From NCBI RefSeq assembly GCF_027625935.1, contig NZ_CP115300.1, forward strand, positions 3,472,001-3,536,000: 64,000 bases of DNA, in the 5' to 3' direction. The notes under the pieces were generated by a model. That model searched no databases. It was not told the DNA's origin and was given only the letters and a program-made list of their open reading frames with translations. This document shows, one piece after another, positions 52,510 through 62,669 of this stretch. Every line of letters begins with the position of its first letter. The stretch's first letter is position 1. Source of the stretch: Streptomyces camelliae (GTDB lineage Bacteria > Actinomycetota > Actinomycetes > Streptomycetales > Streptomycetaceae). Position numbers and translations under genes: made by a program.

Positions 52510-52570
52510 GGGGCGCGGGGCTGGGTCTGCTATGCGGCTACGCCGCGTGGGTGCGACCAGCCACATAGCA
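52510..52570. repeat. copy of a dispersed Streptomyces palindromic intergenic element
   Basis: GGGGCGCGGGG (52510-52520) leads into nested pairs: GGCTGGGTC/GACCAGCC (52519-52527 with 52555-52562) and GCGGC-TAC-GCCGC (52534-52546). An alternative pairing is TGCTATG/CATAGCA. I recall this GGGGCTG...GACCAGCC layout as recurrent in Streptomyces spacers. Confidence 0.55.
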
Positions 52571-52622
52571 CCCGCACCCGCACCCGCACCCGCACCCGCA
52601 CCCGCACCCGCACCCGCACCCG
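52569..52622. repeat. hexanucleotide microsatellite, nine perfect CACCCG units
   Basis: Fifty-four bases of uninterrupted CACCCG directly follow the palindromic element. Its length makes replication slippage likely and copy number probably varies between strains. It lies downstream of both accA2 and the DeoR-type gene. Confidence 0.9.
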
Positions 52623-52658
52623 CCCAACGACCCCAAGCCCTATGGCGAATAGGCACTC

Positions 52659-53594
52659 TCAACGCCGCCGCAGATCAGCGACGCGCCCCCGCTCCGTCCC
52701 CGCCGGCTGCTCCCCCAGCACCCCGCGCAACCCGCCTCCAGGAACCCCGCGCCTAGGCCCCGGCAGGGACGCGCGCCGCGCCGGGGCCTGCTCACCCCCC
52801 GGAGGGGCCCCGTTCGCCCCGGCCACAGCGATCTGCACCCCTTGGTCGGCAAGGGCCTGCAACTCCGTGCCGGCGCGGTCGTCATGGGCCGGAGGCTCGT
52901 CGGTGACCAGCCGGGTGATGAGATCCGTCGGCACGGTCTGGAACATCGTGTCCGTGCCGAGCTTGGAGTGGTCGGCGAGGACCACGACCTCCGCGGCGGC
53001 CTGCACGAGCGCCCGGTCGACGGACGCCGAGAGCATGTTGGACGTGGAGAGCCCCCGCTCGGCGGTGAGCCCGCTCCCGGACAGGAAGGCCTTGGACACG
53101 CGCAGCCCCTGCAGGGACTGCTCCGCGCCGGAGCCGACGAGGGCGTAGTTGGAGCCGCGCAGGGTGCCGCCGGTCATCACGACCTCGACCCGGTTGGCAT
53201 GGGCCAACGCCTGTGCGACCAGCAGGGAGTTGGTGACGACCGTCAGGCCGGGCACCCGCGCGAGCCGACGGGCCAGCTCCTGCGTGGTGGTACCCGCCCC
53301 GACGACGATGGCCTCGCCCTCTTCGACGAATCCCGCCGCGAGGTCGGCGATGGCCGTCTTCTCGGCAGTCGCGAGATGGGACTTCTGCGGGAAGCCGGAC
53401 TCTCGCGTGAACCCGCCCGGCAGTACCGCACCGCCATGCCGGCGGTCGAGGAGTCCTTCGGCCTCCAGTGCCCGCACGTCCCGCCGTACGGTCACTTCGG
53501 AGGTCTGGACGACGCGGGCGAGCTCACGGAGCGACACGGCACCGTTCGCTCGCACCATTTCGAGGATCAATTGGCGACGTTCAGCAGCGAACAC
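52659..53594 (-). CDS. DeoR-family transcriptional regulator
   Basis: This 311-residue protein starts at GTG. Residues ~1-60 are the DeoR helix-turn-helix (RRQLILEMVRANGAVSLREL, VQTSEVTVRRDVRALEAEG). Residues ~75-235 are the sugar-phosphate sensor with VGAGTTTQELARRL and the SADHSK-equivalent LADHSKLGTDT. The last ~60 residues are Gly/Pro/Arg-rich and unlike the family. It lies beside the nucleoside-catabolism block and is a candidate regulator of it, responding to a sugar phosphate. No autoregulatory site was assigned. Confidence 0.9.
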   Translation of the reverse strand: MFAAERRQLILEMVRANGAVSLRELARVVQTSEVTVRRDVRALEAEGLLDRRHGGAVLPGGFTRESGFPQKSHLATAEKTAIADLAAGFVEEGEAIVVGAGTTTQELARRLARVPGLTVVTNSLLVAQALAHANRVEVVMTGGTLRGSNYALVGSGAEQSLQGLRVSKAFLSGSGLTAERGLSTSNMLSASVDRALVQAAAEVVVLADHSKLGTDTMFQTVPTDLITRLVTDEPPAHDDRAGTELQALADQGVQIAVAGANGAPPGGEQAPARRASLPGPRRGVPGGGLRGVLGEQPAGTERGRVADLRRR

Positions 53595-55903: not shown

Positions 55904-55933
55904 CTACGCGCGTAGGCGAAGAGGAGCTACCCT
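55904..55933 (+). promoter_or_regulatory. nucleoside operator (CTACGCGCGTAG) and -10 box of the PNP gene
   Basis: CTACGCGCGTAG at 55904-55915 is a perfect 12-bp palindrome located where the -35 box should be. TACCCT at 55928-55933 is 7 nt before the GTG. The same palindrome occurs before deoC at 59360-59371. A bound repressor would exclude polymerase. Central CG symmetry fits LacI-type sites, but the regulator could be the DeoR-family protein nearby. Confidence 0.75.
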
Positions 55934-55940
55934 CGTCGGC

Positions 55941-56765
55941 GTGAACGCATCTCTTCTTCCGGACGACATCCAGGGCGACCCGTACGCCGCCGCCGACGCC
56001 GCCGCCGCGCGCCTGCGCGAACTCACCGGCGCCGAGACCCACGACGTCGCCCTCGTGATGGGCTCCGGCTGGGCTCCGGCCGTCGACGCCCTGGGCACCC
56101 CCGACGCCGAGTTCCAGGTCACCGAGCTGCCCGGCTTCCCGCCGCCGGCCGTCGAGGGGCACGGCGGCAAGATCCGCTCGTACTCCTTCGGTGACAAGCG
56201 CGCCCTGGTCTTCCTGGGCCGCACGCACTACTACGAGGGCCGTGGCGTGGCGGCCGTCGCCCACGGCGTCCGTACCGCCGTGGCGGCCGGCTGCAAGACG
56301 GTGGTCCTCACCAACGGCTGCGGCGGCCTGCGCGAGGGCATGCGCCCCGGCCAGCCGGTCCTGATCAGCGACCACATCAACCTGACGGCGACCTCCCCGA
56401 TCGTCGGCGCGAACTTCGTCGACCTGACGGACCTCTACTCCCCCCGCCTGCGCGCCCTGTGCAAGGAGATCGACCCGACGCTGGAGGAGGGCGTGTACGC
56501 CCAGTTCCCCGGCCCGCACTACGAGACCCCGGCCGAGATCCGCATGGCCCGCGTCATCGGCGCGGACCTGGTCGGCATGTCCACGGTCCTGGAGGCCATC
56601 GCCGCCCGCGAGGCCGGCGCCGAGGTCCTCGGCATCTCCCTGGTCACCAACCTGGCCGCCGGCATGACCGGCGAACCCCTCAACCACGAGGAGGTCCTCC
56701 AGGCGGGCCGCGACTCCGCCGCACGGATGGGGGAGCTCCTGGGACGGGTGCTGGGCAAGCTGTAA
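55941..56765 (+). CDS. purine nucleoside phosphorylase
   Basis: This 274-residue trimeric-type phosphorylase cleaves purine (deoxy)ribonucleosides with phosphate to base and (deoxy)ribose-1-phosphate. Landmarks are [45 protein letters not shown] and the purine-site [14 protein letters not shown]. The GTG at 55941 is 7 nt after TACCCT without a ribosome site, so the message is probably leaderless; the upstream in-frame ATG at 55890 would span the operator. MTA phosphorylase is less likely given this motif set. First gene of the nucleoside block. Confidence 0.94.
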
Positions 56766-56779
56766 ACGGGTGGGCAGAC

Positions 56780-56801
56780 GGGGGTCCGGGGCGGAGCCCC
56801 C
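56780..56801. repeat. small GC hairpin in the PNP-mutase gap
   Basis: GGGGTCC...GGAGCCCC with GGGGC between can fold with one bulge in the 65-bp gap. Similar GGGTCCGGGGCGGAGCCCC elements are common in Streptomyces spacers as I recall. It could reduce read-through into the mutase gene. Confidence 0.4.
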
Positions 56802-56830
56802 AGCAATGACGAGGAGAGGTTGATCCCAAG

Positions 56831-58462
56831 GTGCACGACGATCTCATCAGCAAGGCCAAGGCCTGGCTCGCCGAGGACCCCGACCAGGAGACCCGCGACG
56901 AACTGGCCAAGCTGATCGACGCCGGTGACGTGAACGAACTGTCGGCCCGGTTCTCCGGCACCCTCCAGTTCGGCACCGCCGGCCTGCGAGGCGAACTCGG
57001 CGCGGGCCCGATGCGCATGAACCGCAGCGTCGTCATCCGCGCCGCCGCCGGCCTCGCCGCGTACCTGAAGGCGGAGGGCCACACCGGCGGGCTGGTCGTC
57101 ATCGGCTACGACGCCCGCCACAAGTCCGCCGACTTCGCCCGGGACACCGCCGCCGTGATGACCGGCGCCGGGCTGCGCGCGGCGGTCCTCCCCCGCCCCC
57201 TCCCCACCCCCGTCCTCGCCTTCGCCATACCGCATCTCGGCGCGGTCGCGGGCGTGGAGGTCACCGCCAGCCACAACCCGCCCCGGGACAACGGCTACAA
57301 GGTCTACCTCGGCGACGGCTCCCAGATCGTGCCGCCCGCCGACGCGGAGATCGCCGCCGAGATCGACGCGATCGCGAGCCTGAACGACGTACCGCGCCCG
57401 GAGTCCGGCTGGGAAACCCTGGACGAGTCGGTCCTGAACGCCTACCTGGCCCGTACGGACGCCGTACTGGCCCCCGGCTCCCCGCGCACCGCCCGCACGG
57501 TCTACACGGCGATGCACGGCGTCGGCAAGGACGTCCTGCTGGCCGCGTTCGCCCGGGCCGGCTTCCCGGAGCCGGTGCTGGTGGCCGAGCAGGCCGACCC
57601 CGACCCGGACTTCCCGACGGTCGCCTTCCCGAACCCGGAGGAGCCGGGCGCGATGGACCTGGCGTTCGCCCGGGCCCGCGCCACGGACCCGGACCTGGTC
57701 ATCGCCAACGACCCCGACGCCGACCGCTGCGCGGTGGCCGTCAAGGACGGCGCCGACTGGCGGATGCTGCGCGGCGACGAGGTCGGCGCGCTGCTCGCCG
57801 CGCACCTGGTCCGCCGGGGCGCGACCGGCGTGTTCGCCGAGTCGATCGTCTCCTCCTCCCTCCTCGGCCGCATCGCCGAGAAGGCGGGCCTCCCTTACGA
57901 GGAGACCCTGACCGGCTTCAAGTGGATCGCCCGCGTGGACGGCCTGCGCTACGGCTACGAGGAGGCCCTCGGCTACTGCGTGGACCCCGAGGGCGTGCGC
58001 GACAAGGACGGCATCACGGCGGCGCTCCTGATCACGGAACTGGCTTCGCGGCTGAAGTCGGAGAACCGCACTCTCCTGGACCTCCTCGACGACCTCGCCG
58101 TGGAGCACGGCCTGCACGCCACGGACCAGCTCTCGGTCCGCGTCCAGGACCTGTCCCTGATCGCCGACGCCATGCGCCGCCTGCGCGAACAGCCGCCGAC
58201 GGAGCTGGCCGGCCTGCCGATCACCCGGTCCGAGGACCTGACCCGGGGCACGGAGCAGCTGCCCCCCACGGACGGCCTGCGTTACACGCTGGACGGCGCC
58301 CGGGTGATCGTCCGCCCGAGCGGCACCGAGCCCAAGCTGAAGTGCTACCTGGAGGTCGTCGTACCGGTCGCCGGCCACGCCGGCCTCCCGGCCGCCCACG
58401 CCCGCGCGACGGAGCTCCTCGCCGCGATCAAGCGGGACCTGTCGGCGGCCGCCGGCATCTGA
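56831..58462 (+). CDS. phosphohexomutase-superfamily enzyme, probable phosphopentomutase
   Basis: This 543-residue four-domain mutase starts at GTG with AGGAGAGG upstream. The phospho-serine loop is VTASHNPPRDNGYKVY, the metal loop is NDPDADRCAV, the sugar loop is GFKWIARVDG and the phosphate loop is RPSGTEPKLKCY. Such genes are often named phosphomannomutase. Length and sequence resemble the PGM2 branch, which includes phosphopentomutases. Its position between a nucleoside phosphorylase gene and deoC, where a ribose-1-P to ribose-5-P step is needed, supports phosphopentomutase. A very strong terminator follows. Confidence 0.9.
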   Translation: MHDDLISKAKAWLAEDPDQETRDELAKLIDAGDVNELSARFSGTLQFGTAGLRGELGAGPMRMNRSVVIRAAAGLAAYLKAEGHTGGLVVIGYDARHKSADFARDTAAVMTGAGLRAAVLPRPLPTPVLAFAIPHLGAVAGVEVTASHNPPRDNGYKVYLGDGSQIVPPADAEIAAEIDAIASLNDVPRPESGWETLDESVLNAYLARTDAVLAPGSPRTARTVYTAMHGVGKDVLLAAFARAGFPEPVLVAEQADPDPDFPTVAFPNPEEPGAMDLAFARARATDPDLVIANDPDADRCAVAVKDGADWRMLRGDEVGALLAAHLVRRGATGVFAESIVSSSLLGRIAEKAGLPYEETLTGFKWIARVDGLRYGYEEALGYCVDPEGVRDKDGITAALLITELASRLKSENRTLLDLLDDLAVEHGLHATDQLSVRVQDLSLIADAMRRLREQPPTELAGLPITRSEDLTRGTEQLPPTDGLRYTLDGARVIVRPSGTEPKLKCYLEVVVPVAGHAGLPAAHARATELLAAIKRDLSAAAGI

Positions 58463-58472
58463 TCCGTACGAC

Positions 58473-58509
58473 GAGAGGGGGTGCCCCGACGTCCGGGGCA
58501 CCCCCTCTC
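58473..58509. terminator. strong hairpin terminator after the mutase gene
   Basis: GAGAGGGGGTGCCCC (58473-58487) and GGGGCACCCCCTCTC (58495-58509) are perfect 15-bp arms with a 7-nt loop. It lies between the mutase gene and the convergent PH-domain gene. Confidence 0.92.
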
Positions 58510-58532
58510 ACACATACGGGCACCGGCCTCAG

Positions 58533-58572
58533 CCCACAGCGACCCGACTCACCCCACGGCGACCCGACTCAC
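58533..58572. repeat. 20-bp tandem duplication spanning the stop codon of the PH-domain gene
   Basis: CCCACAGCGACCCGACTCAC (58533-58552) and CCCACGGCGACCCGACTCAC (58553-58572) differ at one base. The second copy contains the stop codon (58569-58571, minus strand). Confidence 0.75.
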
Positions 58573-59243
58573 CCCGTGACGTACAGAATCGCCAGCAGCA
58601 CCGCACCCGCCACCGCCGGTGCGAGCACCTCGTACGCCCAGCGCACGCTGATCTCTCCCTGCGCCGACTCCGCTTCCCCGCGCCGCTCCAGCAGCTCGCG
58701 CAGGTCGTCCATGGCCTGGTCGGTCTCCGCGCGGGTCGGGCCGGTCGAGAGGGCGGAGCCGGTGCCGAGGCCGCCCAGGCCGCCGAGGCCGTGCCCCCCG
58801 GGGCGGCTGCCACGGGCCGCGTCCGCAGCCGCGCGTGCCCTGCGCGTCTGGGCCTTCTTGCGGGCCCGCAGCGAGACCGGCAGGGCCCACAGCTGGTACT
58901 TGCCGCCCGCCTTGACGACGACCTCGTTGGAGTAGCCGGAGCGCAGCGAGGCGATCTCGCCCCAGGGCAGGCTGATCACGCGGAAGGGGTTGCGGATCCG
59001 CAGCCGGTCCTCACCGGCGAAGACCGCCGGGCGCAGGGTGAAGGCGACCACCAGCGGCACGGCCAGGATCATCCCGGCGAGCGCCAGCCACGGCGTACGA
59101 CCGTGTCCCCTGAACAGGGCGTCGAAGCCCAGCCAGGCCATGACGGCGAGCAGCAGCACGCCGCCCACGAGCGCCATGGGCGAGCGGTAGATCCGGTCCT
59201 TCGCGACGGGCGACGCGGGTGACTGGTGGTCCGGGGTCGTCAT
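58569..59243 (-). CDS. PH-domain-like membrane protein
   Basis: This 224-residue protein starts at the ATG at 59243. Two membrane helices (~28-70: MALVGGVLLLAVMAWLGF and LALAGMILAVPLVVAFTL) precede a bacterial PH-like segment (LRIRNPFRVISLPWGEIASLRSG). A Gly-rich linker (GLGGLGGLGTGS) and a final membrane helix near the C-terminus (VAGAVLLAILYV) follow. This fits the actinobacterial bPH_6 family, whose role is unknown. It is divergent from deoC. Confidence 0.85.
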   Translation of the reverse strand: MTTPDHQSPASPVAKDRIYRSPMALVGGVLLLAVMAWLGFDALFRGHGRTPWLALAGMILAVPLVVAFTLRPAVFAGEDRLRIRNPFRVISLPWGEIASLRSGYSNEVVVKAGGKYQLWALPVSLRARKKAQTRRARAAADAARGSRPGGHGLGGLGGLGTGSALSTGPTRAETDQAMDDLRELLERRGEAESAQGEISVRWAYEVLAPAVAGAVLLAILYVTG

Positions 59244-59359
59244 GGCCCCGATTCTGCACGACACCACCACCAGTGGCTCACGTGCCCCGACAGCCGGTGC
59301 TCATCCGTGACCCCGGGGTGAGAGATGAGCAGCTGGAGAGACCCAGGGGTATACATCCG

Positions 59360-59378
59360 CTACGCGCGTAGATATGCT
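59360..59378 (+). promoter_or_regulatory. nucleoside operator (CTACGCGCGTAG) and -10 box of deoC
   Basis: The same 12-bp palindrome as before the PNP gene lies at 59360-59371, immediately followed by TATGCT (59373-59378), 6 nt before GTG 59385. The operator thus occupies the -10/-35 spacer. Two identical copies only 3.5 kb apart support a shared regulon. Confidence 0.75.
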
Positions 59379-59384
59379 CGTCTG

Positions 59385-60350
59385 GTGACCATGCCCTCTA
59401 CCGCACCCACAGCACACGCGCTCGCCGACGTCACCGCGTCCGACAGCACGCTGCGCCGCTTCCTGCACGGGCTGCCCGGCGTCGACGCGGTCGGCCTGGA
59501 GGCGCGGGCCGCGTCTCTCGGCACCCGTTCCATCAAGACCACCGCGAAGGCGTACGCCATCGACCTCGCCATCTCGATGGTCGATCTGACGACGCTGGAA
59601 GGCGCGGACACCCCGGGCAAGGTCCGGGCGCTCGGCGCCAAGGCGGTCCATCCCGACCCGACGGACCGGACGACCCCGACCACGGCGGCCGTCTGCGTCT
59701 ATCCCGACATGGTGGCCGTCGCCAAGGAGGCCGTCGCCGGCTCGGGCGTCAAGGTCGCCTCCGTCGCCACCGCCTTCCCGGCCGGCCGTGCCGCCCTCGA
59801 CGTGAAGCTGGCCGACGTCCACGAGGCCGTCGCCGCCGGCGCCGACGAGATCGACATGGTCATCGACCGGGGCGCGTTCCTCGCCGGCAAGTACCTGAAG
59901 GTGTACGACGAGATCGTCGCCGTGAAGCAGGCCTGCGGCGACACCGCCCGGCTGAAGGTCATCTTCGAGACCGGCGAGCTGTCCACGTACGACAACATCC
60001 GCCGCGCCTCCTGGCTCGGCATGCTCGCGGGCACCGACTTCATCAAGACCTCCACCGGCAAGGTCGCCGTCAACGCGACCCCCGCCAACACCCTCCTGAT
60101 GCTGGAGGCCGTACGGGACTTCCGCGCCCAGACCGGCGTCCAGGTCGGCGTGAAGCCGGCCGGCGGCATCCGGACCAGCAAGGACGCGATCAAGTTCCTG
60201 GTCCTGGTCAACGAGACCGCGGGCGAGGACTGGCTGGACAACCACTGGTTCCGCTTCGGCGCCTCCTCGCTCCTGAACGACCTGCTGATGCAGCGTCAGA
60301 AGCTGGCCACCGGCCGCTACTCCGGCCCCGACTACGTGACGGTGGACTGA
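59385..60350 (+). CDS. deoC: deoxyribose-phosphate aldolase
   Basis: This 321-residue class I aldolase cleaves 2-deoxyribose-5-phosphate to glyceraldehyde-3-phosphate and acetaldehyde. The Schiff-base lysine is in VGVKPAGGIRT and an acid-lysine pair lies in the DEIDMVIDRGAFLAGKY and TSTGKVAVNATP strands. It belongs to the longer, eukaryote-like DERA branch (~320 residues) rather than the ~250-residue E. coli type. GTG 59385 is favoured by the leaderless promoter; ATG 59391 is alternative. It starts an operon with two aldehyde dehydrogenase genes (5-bp gap). Confidence 0.95.
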   Translation: MTMPSTAPTAHALADVTASDSTLRRFLHGLPGVDAVGLEARAASLGTRSIKTTAKAYAIDLAISMVDLTTLEGADTPGKVRALGAKAVHPDPTDRTTPTTAAVCVYPDMVAVAKEAVAGSGVKVASVATAFPAGRAALDVKLADVHEAVAAGADEIDMVIDRGAFLAGKYLKVYDEIVAVKQACGDTARLKVIFETGELSTYDNIRRASWLGMLAGTDFIKTSTGKVAVNATPANTLLMLEAVRDFRAQTGVQVGVKPAGGIRTSKDAIKFLVLVNETAGEDWLDNHWFRFGASSLLNDLLMQRQKLATGRYSGPDYVTVD

Positions 60351-60355
60351 TCACC

Positions 60356-61792
60356 ATGGCATCCGCATTCGAGTACGCACCCGCGCCCGAGTCCCGCTCG
60401 GTCGTCGACATCGCCCCCTCCTACGGCCTGTTCATCGACGGCGAGTTCGCGGAGGCCGCCGACGGCAAGGTCTTCAAGACCGTCAGCCCGTCGACCGAAG
60501 AGGTCCTCTCCGAGGTCGCCCAGGCCGGTGAGGCGGACGTGGACCGCGCCGTCAAGGCCGCCCGCAAGGCGTTCGAGAAGTGGTCCGCGCTGCCGGGCTC
60601 CGAGCGTGCCAAGTACCTGTTCCGCATCGCCCGGATCATCCAGGAGCGCAGCCGTGAGCTGGCCGTCCTGGAGACGCTGGACAACGGCAAGCCGATCAAG
60701 GAGACCCGGGACGCCGACCTGCCCCTGGTGGCGGCCCACTTCTTCTACTACGCGGGCTGGGCCGACAAGCTCGACCACGCCGGCTTCGGCGCGAACCCGC
60801 GGCCGCTGGGCGTGGCGGGCCAGGTCATCCCCTGGAACTTCCCCCTCCTGATGCTGGCGTGGAAGATCGCCCCGGCGCTGGCGACGGGCAACACGGTCGT
60901 CCTGAAGCCGGCCGAGACGACCCCCCTGTCGGCGTTGTTCTTCGCGGACATCTGCCGCCAGGCGGGCCTGCCCAAGGGGGTCGTCAACATCCTTCCGGGT
61001 TACGGCGACGCGGGCGCGGCCCTCGTGGCGCACCCGGACGTGAACAAGGTCGCCTTCACCGGCTCCACGGCCGTCGGCAAGGAGATCGCCCGCACGGTCG
61101 CGGGCACGCGGAAGAAGCTCACCCTCGAACTGGGCGGCAAGGGCGCCAACATCGTCTTCGACGACGCCCCCATCGACCAGGCCGTCGAGGGCATCGTCAC
61201 CGGCATCTTCTTCAACCAGGGCCAGGTCTGCTGCGCGGGCAGCCGTCTGCTGGTCCAGGAGTCGATCCAGGACGAGCTGCTCGACGCTCTGAAGCGCAGG
61301 CTCTCCACCCTCCGTCTCGGCGACCCGCTGGACAAGAACACCGACATCGGCGCGATCAACTCCGCCGAGCAGCTGGCCCGGATCACCGCACTGGCCGAGC
61401 AGGGCGAGGCGGAGGGCGCCGAGCGCTGGTCCCCTGCGTGCGAACTTCCGGAGAGCGGCTACTGGTTCGCCCCGACGCTCTTCACGAACGTCACCCAGGC
61501 GCACACCATCGCCCGCGACGAGATCTTCGGCCCGGTGCTGTCCGTCCTCTCCTTCCGCACCCCGGACGAGGCGGTCGCCAAGGCGAACAACACGCAGTAC
61601 GGCCTGTCCGCGGGCATCTGGACCGAGAAGGGCTCACGGATCCTGGCGGTGGCGAGCAAGCTCCGCGCGGGTGTGATCTGGTCCAACACGTTCAACAAGT
61701 TCGACCCGACCTCGCCGTTCGGCGGTTACAAGGAGTCGGGCTTCGGCCGCGAGGGCGGCCGCCACGGCCTGGAGGCGTACCTCGATGTCTGA
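60356..61792 (+). CDS. NAD(P)-dependent aldehyde dehydrogenase
   Basis: This 478-residue protein has the general-base Glu in TLELGGKGANIV, the catalytic cysteine in FFNQGQVCCAGSR and the C-terminal SPFGGYKESGFGRE. VIPWNFPLLMLAWKIAPAL lines the cofactor site. It lies 5 bp after deoC, so the likely substrate is the acetaldehyde DeoC releases, oxidised to acetate. Substrate assignment is from context. Its last 8 bp overlap the truncated paralogue gene. Confidence 0.95.
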   Translation: MASAFEYAPAPESRSVVDIAPSYGLFIDGEFAEAADGKVFKTVSPSTEEVLSEVAQAGEADVDRAVKAARKAFEKWSALPGSERAKYLFRIARIIQERSRELAVLETLDNGKPIKETRDADLPLVAAHFFYYAGWADKLDHAGFGANPRPLGVAGQVIPWNFPLLMLAWKIAPALATGNTVVLKPAETTPLSALFFADICRQAGLPKGVVNILPGYGDAGAALVAHPDVNKVAFTGSTAVGKEIARTVAGTRKKLTLELGGKGANIVFDDAPIDQAVEGIVTGIFFNQGQVCCAGSRLLVQESIQDELLDALKRRLSTLRLGDPLDKNTDIGAINSAEQLARITALAEQGEAEGAERWSPACELPESGYWFAPTLFTNVTQAHTIARDEIFGPVLSVLSFRTPDEAVAKANNTQYGLSAGIWTEKGSRILAVASKLRAGVIWSNTFNKFDPTSPFGGYKESGFGREGGRHGLEAYLDV

Positions 61793-62669
61793 CCGTTTGA
61801 GCGTCTTCAAGACCTACAAGCTGTACGTCGGCGGGAAGTTCCCGCGTTCCGAGAGCGGCCGGGTGTACGAGGTGACGGACTCCAAGGGCAACTGGCTGGC
61901 CAACGCTCCGCAGTCCTCCCGCAAGGACGCCCGGGACGCGGTCGTGGCCGCGCGCAAGGCGTTCGGCGGCTGGTCCGGCGCGACCGCCTACAACCGGGGC
62001 CAGGTCCTCTACCGCGTCGCGGAGATGCTGGAGGGCCGCAAGGACCAGTTCGTGCGCGAGGTCGCCGACGCCGAGGGTCTGTCCAAGTCGAAGGCGGCGG
62101 CGGTCGTGGACGCGACCATCGACCGCTGGGTCTGGTACGCCGGCTGGACCGACAAGATCGCCCAGGTGATCGGCGGCGCCAACCCGGTCGCGGGTCCGTT
62201 CTTCAACCTCTCCTCGCCGGAGCCGACGGGTGTGGTGGCTGTCGTGGCCCCGCAGGAGTCGTCGTTCCTGGGCCTGGTCTCGGTTGTCGCCCCGGTGATC
62301 GCCACCGGCAACACGGCGGTCGTGATCGCGAGCGAGGAGTCCCCGCTCCCCGCCCTCTCCCTGGGAGAGGTCCTGGCCACCTCCGACGTCCCCGGCGGTG
62401 TCGTCAACGTCCTGTCCGGCCGTACGGCGGAGCTCGCCGCCCCGCTGGCCGCACACCAGGACGTCAACGCCATCGACCTCGCGGGCGCGGACGAGGCGCT
62501 CGCGAAGGAGCTGGAGGTCGCCGCGGCCGACAATCTCAAGCGCGTTCTGCGTCCACAGGCTGTGGATTACTTCGAGACGCCCGGGATCGAGCGGATGACG
62601 GCGTTCCTGGAGACGAAGACCGTGTGGCATCCGACGGGGTCGTTGGGCGCGTCCGGGTCGTCGTACTGA
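61785..62669 (+). CDS. half-length aldehyde dehydrogenase paralogue lacking the catalytic domain
   Basis: This 294-residue protein overlaps the preceding gene by 8 bp. Residues 1-~235 follow an ALDH cofactor domain (LYVGGKFPRSESGRVYEV, then GVVAVVAPQESSFLGLVSVVAPVIATGN). There is no GQxCxA cysteine, no LGGK glutamate and no C-terminal FGGxKxSG. The chain ends with an unrelated tail (VLRPQAVDYFE...). The reading frame is clean, so this is probably a retained pseudoenzyme rather than a recent break. It may regulate or stabilise the full-length enzyme; this is inferred from the coupled genes. Confidence 0.9.
   Translation: MSDRLSVFKTYKLYVGGKFPRSESGRVYEVTDSKGNWLANAPQSSRKDARDAVVAARKAFGGWSGATAYNRGQVLYRVAEMLEGRKDQFVREVADAEGLSKSKAAAVVDATIDRWVWYAGWTDKIAQVIGGANPVAGPFFNLSSPEPTGVVAVVAPQESSFLGLVSVVAPVIATGNTAVVIASEESPLPALSLGEVLATSDVPGGVVNVLSGRTAELAAPLAAHQDVNAIDLAGADEALAKELEVAAADNLKRVLRPQAVDYFETPGIERMTAFLETKTVWHPTGSLGASGSSY

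Follow-up and report, generated by a model that had tools for sequence, protein, structure and literature searches.

A palindrome conserved at nucleoside and purine gene promoters in Streptomycetaceae is probably the operator of a shared regulon

Introduction

A 64,000-nt stretch of Streptomyces camelliae DNA (NZ_CP115300.1; hereafter the window, meaning the whole stretch analysed) carries two identical copies of the 12-bp palindrome CTACGCGCGTAG, one upstream of the gene for purine nucleoside phosphorylase (PNP) and the other upstream of deoC, the deoxyribose-phosphate aldolase gene. Do these palindromes place both genes under one regulator, how far does such control extend, and which protein reads the site? 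A preliminary description of the window, made from its letters, had proposed a single nucleoside regulon governed by a shared repressor. Judged from sequence comparison, one regulator very probably governs genes of nucleoside uptake, of nucleoside breakdown and of part of purine synthesis in Streptomyces and related genera. The palindrome itself is probably an operator, read by a dimeric factor that most likely acts as a repressor and would control one nucleoside/purine regulon of the Streptomycetaceae.

Results

Both palindromes were found at exactly the positions first given for them (Table 1). The claim that they lie across core promoters also held, as far as predicted elements go: the first covers the -35 region of PNP and the second sits in the deoC spacer, 1 bp from the -10 element. 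All -35 and -10 elements at these two genes are predictions; that of PNP at -10 is partly kept in the PNP consensus, and ATATGCT is kept in the deoC consensus (18 sites). The window contains no further copy of CTACGCGCGTAG, even allowing two mismatches, and when the window was simulated 400 times with a first-order Markov model, two copies never appeared (simulated mean 0.0). At up to two mismatches, 2 matches were found where 4.06 are expected, so there is no enrichment, and three further palindromes of 12 bp, likewise perfect, are present in two or more copies. Because these other repeated palindromes exist in such a GC-rich window, the weight of the evidence rests on position and conservation, and not on repetition.

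Throughout the searches, the reversed pattern served as the control. The 9.6-Mb genome of S. camelliae holds three exact copies (reversed control, 1); they lie within 15 kb of one another, and each is at a nucleoside gene. Besides those at PNP and deoC, the third belongs to the adenosine deaminase gene (add), 11 kb from deoC, and ends 16 bp ahead of its start codon. A one-mismatch copy is present in an operon for a nucleoside-type ABC transporter, where it lies between the genes of a Bmp-type binding protein and of the ATPase; behind the ATPase gene, and in the same orientation, come two permease genes and one for thymidine phosphorylase. The same site is thus found ahead of several functionally linked genes within one genome. 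When the inner position is left free (CTACnCGnGTAG), eight matches are obtained, against six for the control. Five of them lie at PNP, deoC, add, the ABC operon and upstream of purS; of the other three, one follows the end of purA and two precede the genes of a peptide-type permease and a solute-binding protein. As such counts are close to those of the control, matches to the relaxed motif are informative by their place and not by their number.

The palindrome is conserved throughout the family. Exact copies, 2-6 per genome, are present in all 61 Streptomyces genomes, whereas the reversed control gives 1-3 copies in 29 of them and none in 32. Among other Streptomycetaceae, one or more exact copies are found in 50 of 51 genomes, representing 15 of 16 genera (reversed control, 21/51), which brings the family to 111 of 112 genomes. 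The only exception (G263) carries a form with two mismatches, CTACGCGCGTTA, just upstream of PNP. By contrast with the family, members of the class outside it have an exact copy in only 7 of 181 genomes, and no recognised regulon gene was found near these sites, crude gene calling having given nothing at two of the loci (L085, L086). In many genomes outside the Streptomycetaceae the palindrome is rarer than its reversed control (0 versus up to 9), which avoidance of the word may explain.

The site is also kept at the same genes. At 0-1 mismatch it lies upstream of PNP in 39/39 distinct regions, of deoC in 14/14, of add in 23/23 (two adenosine deaminases mixed) and of the ABC ATPase gene in 33/33; these counts, made after removal of duplicates and of rows with the gene signature less than 350 bp from the locus end, are biased since most loci were fetched through the exact site itself. 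Loci fetched by position in 12 genomes of other genera (L332-L351) provided, by gene signature and after duplicate removal, 8 PNP, 4 deoC and 2 add upstream regions, all of which have the site at 0-1 mismatch. The expectation that footprinting in other Streptomyces would find the site upstream of orthologues was therefore borne out. We also hand-picked, among the listed matches, 11 Streptomyces loci with an exact site away from the main stretch. Nine of them are at nucleoside or purine genes: five at a second adenosine deaminase, one at purS and three at the ABC operon, PNP and deoC on separate contigs; the other two have no gene assignment.

Further evidence comes from purS, the first gene of the de novo purine operon. 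Here loci were fetched by protein, without reference to the motif, from 31 genomes including S. camelliae, and 30 loci were returned. The site precedes purS in all 30, with one mismatch in 29 and two in the last, whereas shuffled sequences reach these levels in 0.07% and 0.9% of cases, respectively, and the best match to the reversed pattern has 4 mismatches at every locus. In a genome of another genus, CTATGCGCGTAG occupies the same place upstream of purS. One could still suppose that a GC-rich palindrome merely recurs by chance, as suggested by genome matches at up to one mismatch, which stand at background. Exact copies occur in nearly every genome of the family and, where loci were read, at the same promoters; together with the protein-fetched purS loci, they make this explanation extremely improbable. 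At one locus (L192), purS is divergent from the gene of an Lsr2 nucleoid protein and the site lies in their common intergenic region.

The regulon is consequently wider than the pair of promoters first proposed. PNP and deoC keep their place in it, and adenosine deaminase, the Bmp-type ABC operon, purS and, in one clade, purN-purH are to be added. The last case concerns genera g103 and g104, where the site was seen ahead of purN-purH in seven genomes, three of them checked against Pfam. At purA, CTACCCGCGTAG was considered as an upstream site and rejected, being 177 bp beyond the purA stop codon; no match at 0-1 mismatch over the ten fixed positions was found in the 500 bp upstream of purA in 12 of 12 records (L352-L363). 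One record titled Vibrio cholerae strain 35D (L420) encodes a PurA 67% identical to the Streptomyces protein, and its title may be wrong.

Over five promoter classes, the motif reads (T/G/C)CTACGCGCGTAG(A/C/G), a 14-bp palindrome, and information falls to near zero outside position 7 on both sides. The core had been preselected by the pattern and the flanks had not, so that it is the sharp edge that constitutes the result. Between the site and the predicted -10 element there is 1 bp at deoC and there are 4 bp at add; at PNP and purS the distance is 12 and 14 bp, respectively. Start codons come shortly after the predicted -10 at PNP, deoC and add, whose transcripts may be leaderless. The location of the site over predicted core promoters fits steric repression. 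Its location within the deoC spacer would also suit a promoter or activator element, since MerR-type activators bind there too; the varying distance to the -10 element argues against a fixed activator site and is better accommodated by steric repression, and we regard activation as unlikely.

Which protein binds the palindrome was approached through the regulators encoded in the same genomes. The preliminary description had named the DeoR-family protein of the window (Table 1). As the regulator, it would sense deoxyribose-5-phosphate as E. coli DeoR does. Its gene is 2.3 kb from the PNP site, the DeoR sensor domain is present, and a close homologue exists in all 61 Streptomycetaceae searched. 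Against it, the best match to the palindrome in the 300 bp upstream of the gene has at least 3 mismatches in 20/20 loci, where a different conserved block is found instead. Moreover, homologues at 57-68% identity occur in four genomes with no site in its exact form (G113, G145, G104, G087); in G113 and G145 they are 66-68% identical with a near-identical recognition helix, and in G113 the gene adjoins a sugar-type ABC system. Lacking a site of its own and having orthologues in genomes without an exact site, this protein is now disfavoured, and we consider it an improbable regulator. SCO4920, which we take to be the S. coelicolor counterpart of the gene, is listed as a DeoR-family regulator. 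The gene has a long conserved leader around CTGCTGAAAGCAGAC and GTTACTGTCAGTTTCGTG (L106-L125), possibly its own operator. A head-to-tail hexamer repeat, GCACCC/ACCCGC, is located at 52569-52624, between it and a biotin-carboxylase gene.

The other candidate put forward initially was an unlinked LacI-family protein, on account of the CG-centred symmetry. The S. camelliae genome contains 39 LacI-family matches. When the 450 bp ahead of each helix-turn-helix are examined in this genome, none of the 39 shows the site at 0-1 mismatch, and the closest sequence has 2 mismatches (L261). Position -3 is C and not the A typical of LacI motifs. In the available excerpt of PMC4052901, a central CG is the commonest centre of LacI motifs, in keeping with the even, CG-centred palindrome found here, and the family includes the nucleoside regulators AdeR, HpxR and UriR of other bacteria; the same excerpt gives LacI motifs a width of 16-22 nt, more than the 14 bp conserved here. 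The CG centre hence stands as a LacI-like trait, while the width and the LacI genes themselves do not follow, and a LacI-type regulator appears possible but doubtful.

An unlinked protein of another family (XRE, TetR, GntR or other) has, in our estimate, about an even chance. The half-site resembles the BldD-like nACnC, and a distant regulator fits the finding that in S. camelliae neither linked regulator examined (the DeoR-type gene; a LysR gene near add) has a site. One genome (G297) has a TetR gene transcribed divergently from deoC, with an exact site common to both. The remaining deoC loci read, however, lack this TetR gene at deoC, as does every other locus examined, and its listed homologues (best 120 of 876) belong mainly to Kitasatospora and Streptacidiphilus; no single protein of these other families stands out. 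Another TetR gene, by CTACGCGCGTAA (L181), was rejected, as the site is 21 bp beyond its stop codon and a homologue of at least 63% identity exists in only 7 of 31 genomes, S. camelliae included.

Of the 11 add loci of at least 14 kb, 9 have a LysR-family gene upstream of add (L016:13955-14968; L091, L095, L136, L335, L343, L346). In many loci this gene and add share a strand, and in genus g94 they are direct neighbours. In S. camelliae the LysR-family gene and an MFS transporter gene are divergent, and no match to the relaxed motif was found at the LysR gene in that genome.

Around the two palindromes of the window, the gene between PNP and deoC encodes an enzyme of the phosphomannomutase/phosphoglucomutase family that we infer, from its position, to be a phosphopentomutase by role (Table 1). 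The deoC coding sequence may begin at GTG 59385 or at ATG 59391.

Table 1. Positions of the palindromes, predicted promoter elements and genes discussed (window coordinates unless a locus is given).
Feature	Position	Strand	Remarks
DeoR-family regulator gene	52659..53594	-	PF00455, PF08220; weak candidate for regulator
Putative operator copy 1, CTACGCGCGTAG	55904..55915	no strand	covers predicted -35 region of PNP
Predicted -10 of PNP, TACCCT	55928..55933	+	7 bp ahead of GTG 55941; sequence reading
Purine nucleoside phosphorylase (PNP)	55941..56765	+	TIGR01698 339.7 bits, cutoff 302.6; PF01048
Phosphomannomutase/phosphoglucomutase-family enzyme	56831..58462	+	PF02878, PF02879, PF02880, PF00408
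Predicted -35 of deoC, TATACA	59350..59355	+	sequence reading
Putative operator copy 2, CTACGCGCGTAG	59360..59371	no strand	within 17-bp spacer of predicted deoC promoter
Predicted -10 of deoC, TATGCT	59373..59378	+	sequence reading
deoC, deoxyribose-phosphate aldolase	59385..60350	+	TIGR00126 177 bits, cutoff 117.3; PF01791
Aldehyde dehydrogenase, directly 3' of deoC	60356..61792	+	PF00171 554.8 bits
Second, shorter aldehyde-dehydrogenase-family protein	61785..62669	+	PF00171 135.5 bits
TetR gene of G297	L197:799-1473	-	PF00440, PF17920

Some sites occur at genes of less obvious connection. A secreted HNH-like protein is preceded, about 70 bp upstream, by a variant site in two genomes of two genera, S. 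camelliae among them (L433:1823-2353 and L203:901-1428, both on the minus strand). EEDH and NLWPEP are conserved in this protein, which has no Pfam or NCBIfam family match; HNH endonuclease is the UniRef name of 6 among 120 listed homologues, and the structure model is poor (mean pLDDT 59.9). In four g103 genomes (L159, L160, L163, L166) an exact palindrome lies upstream of related secreted proteins lacking an assigned function, of which that of L163, the one compared with Pfam, has an Ig-like domain.

Discussion

The proposal of a shared operator and a single regulon is strongly supported by the conservation of the site at orthologous genes and by the placing of the exact copies. These two observations, with the position over predicted core promoters and the bounded 14-bp symmetry, were made directly; from them we infer repression, a ligand and a single protein for all sites. 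In the mechanism that we favour, a dimeric factor, most likely a repressor, would be released by a purine nucleoside or by a metabolite of deoxyribose or purines. It would control nucleoside uptake, through the ABC operon with thymidine phosphorylase; nucleoside breakdown, through adenosine deaminase, PNP and deoC with the aldehyde dehydrogenases; and de novo purine synthesis, through the operon that begins with purS.

Several observations weigh against this reading. The preliminary description had called for a genome-wide search allowing one mismatch: exact copies are indeed confined to nucleoside genes in S. camelliae, but matches at up to one mismatch are scattered at background (29 versus 28 for the reversed control). 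The relaxed motifs are not enriched over the control either, CTACnCGnGTAG giving 8 against 6 in G000, 3 against 6 in G147, 5 against 8 in G259 and 7 against 2 in G297, and CTAYNCGNRTAG giving 9 against 6, 3 against 6 and 6 against 14 in the first three. Two genome matches (L011, L190) are without explanation, and the CTACCCGCGTAG match past the end of purA is outside its promoter. The purS sites are mostly asymmetric (CTAC[C/T]CGCGTAG), which possibly reflects weaker binding or a second protein. None of the candidate regulators compared by sequence could be tied to the site. Finally, the palindrome had been expected to be absent from coding regions, and this was not borne out at the second adenosine deaminase of five Streptomyces (L070, L071, L073, L074, L075), where an exact site falls within codons 3-7. 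These five loci were found through the exact site and so provide no independent count (the NCBIfam check was made on L070). Codons 3-7 are an odd position for an operator; a ribosome-binding-site-like AAGGAA lies ahead of the site in most of the five loci.

It is tempting to go further and to suggest one undescribed master regulator of the purine and nucleoside economy of Streptomycetaceae, acting via a single 14-bp operator, although we give this somewhat less than an even chance. If true, it would link the scavenging of extracellular nucleic acids (through the secreted HNH-like protein) with the import of nucleosides, their degradation to C2 units and the synthesis of purines de novo, and one protein would then fill the roles of both DeoR/CytR and PurR. 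The family-wide putative operator offers a direct handle for finding the regulator of purine and nucleoside flow, with ready-made test promoters. According to the available excerpt of PMC6627660, purine supply feeds ppGpp and c-di-GMP, signals by which Streptomyces development and antibiotic production are steered. No description of the motif or of the regulon was found in the literature searched, which leaves out most subscription journals; the literal 12-mer occurs as a string in the available text of PMC8063756 and PMC8510090.

The system is very probably of a known kind, a regulon built on a shared operator, but, as its sites suggest, wider than proposed and reaching de novo purine synthesis. 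In E. coli, DeoR and CytR jointly control PNP, deoC, phosphopentomutase, thymidine phosphorylase and nucleoside uptake, and the same functions appear to be under common control here. The operator sequence is nevertheless different, and the regulon here appears to take in adenosine deaminase and a de novo purine operon as well; homology to DeoR does not by itself single out the regulator. No PurR orthologue was identified in this work. E. coli PurR likewise regulates de novo purine genes, and a CG centre is found in most LacI-type motifs (excerpt of PMC4052901), whereas the motif described here has another sequence and also marks nucleoside breakdown and uptake. XdhR of S. coelicolor is, similarly, a Streptomyces regulator of purine salvage; its described target is xdhABC and its ligand ppGpp, and no link to the present promoters was found in the available part of PMC6627660. 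AdeR, HpxR and UriR of the LacI family control nucleoside utilisation in other bacteria (excerpt of PMC4052901); they differ in that their regulons are local.

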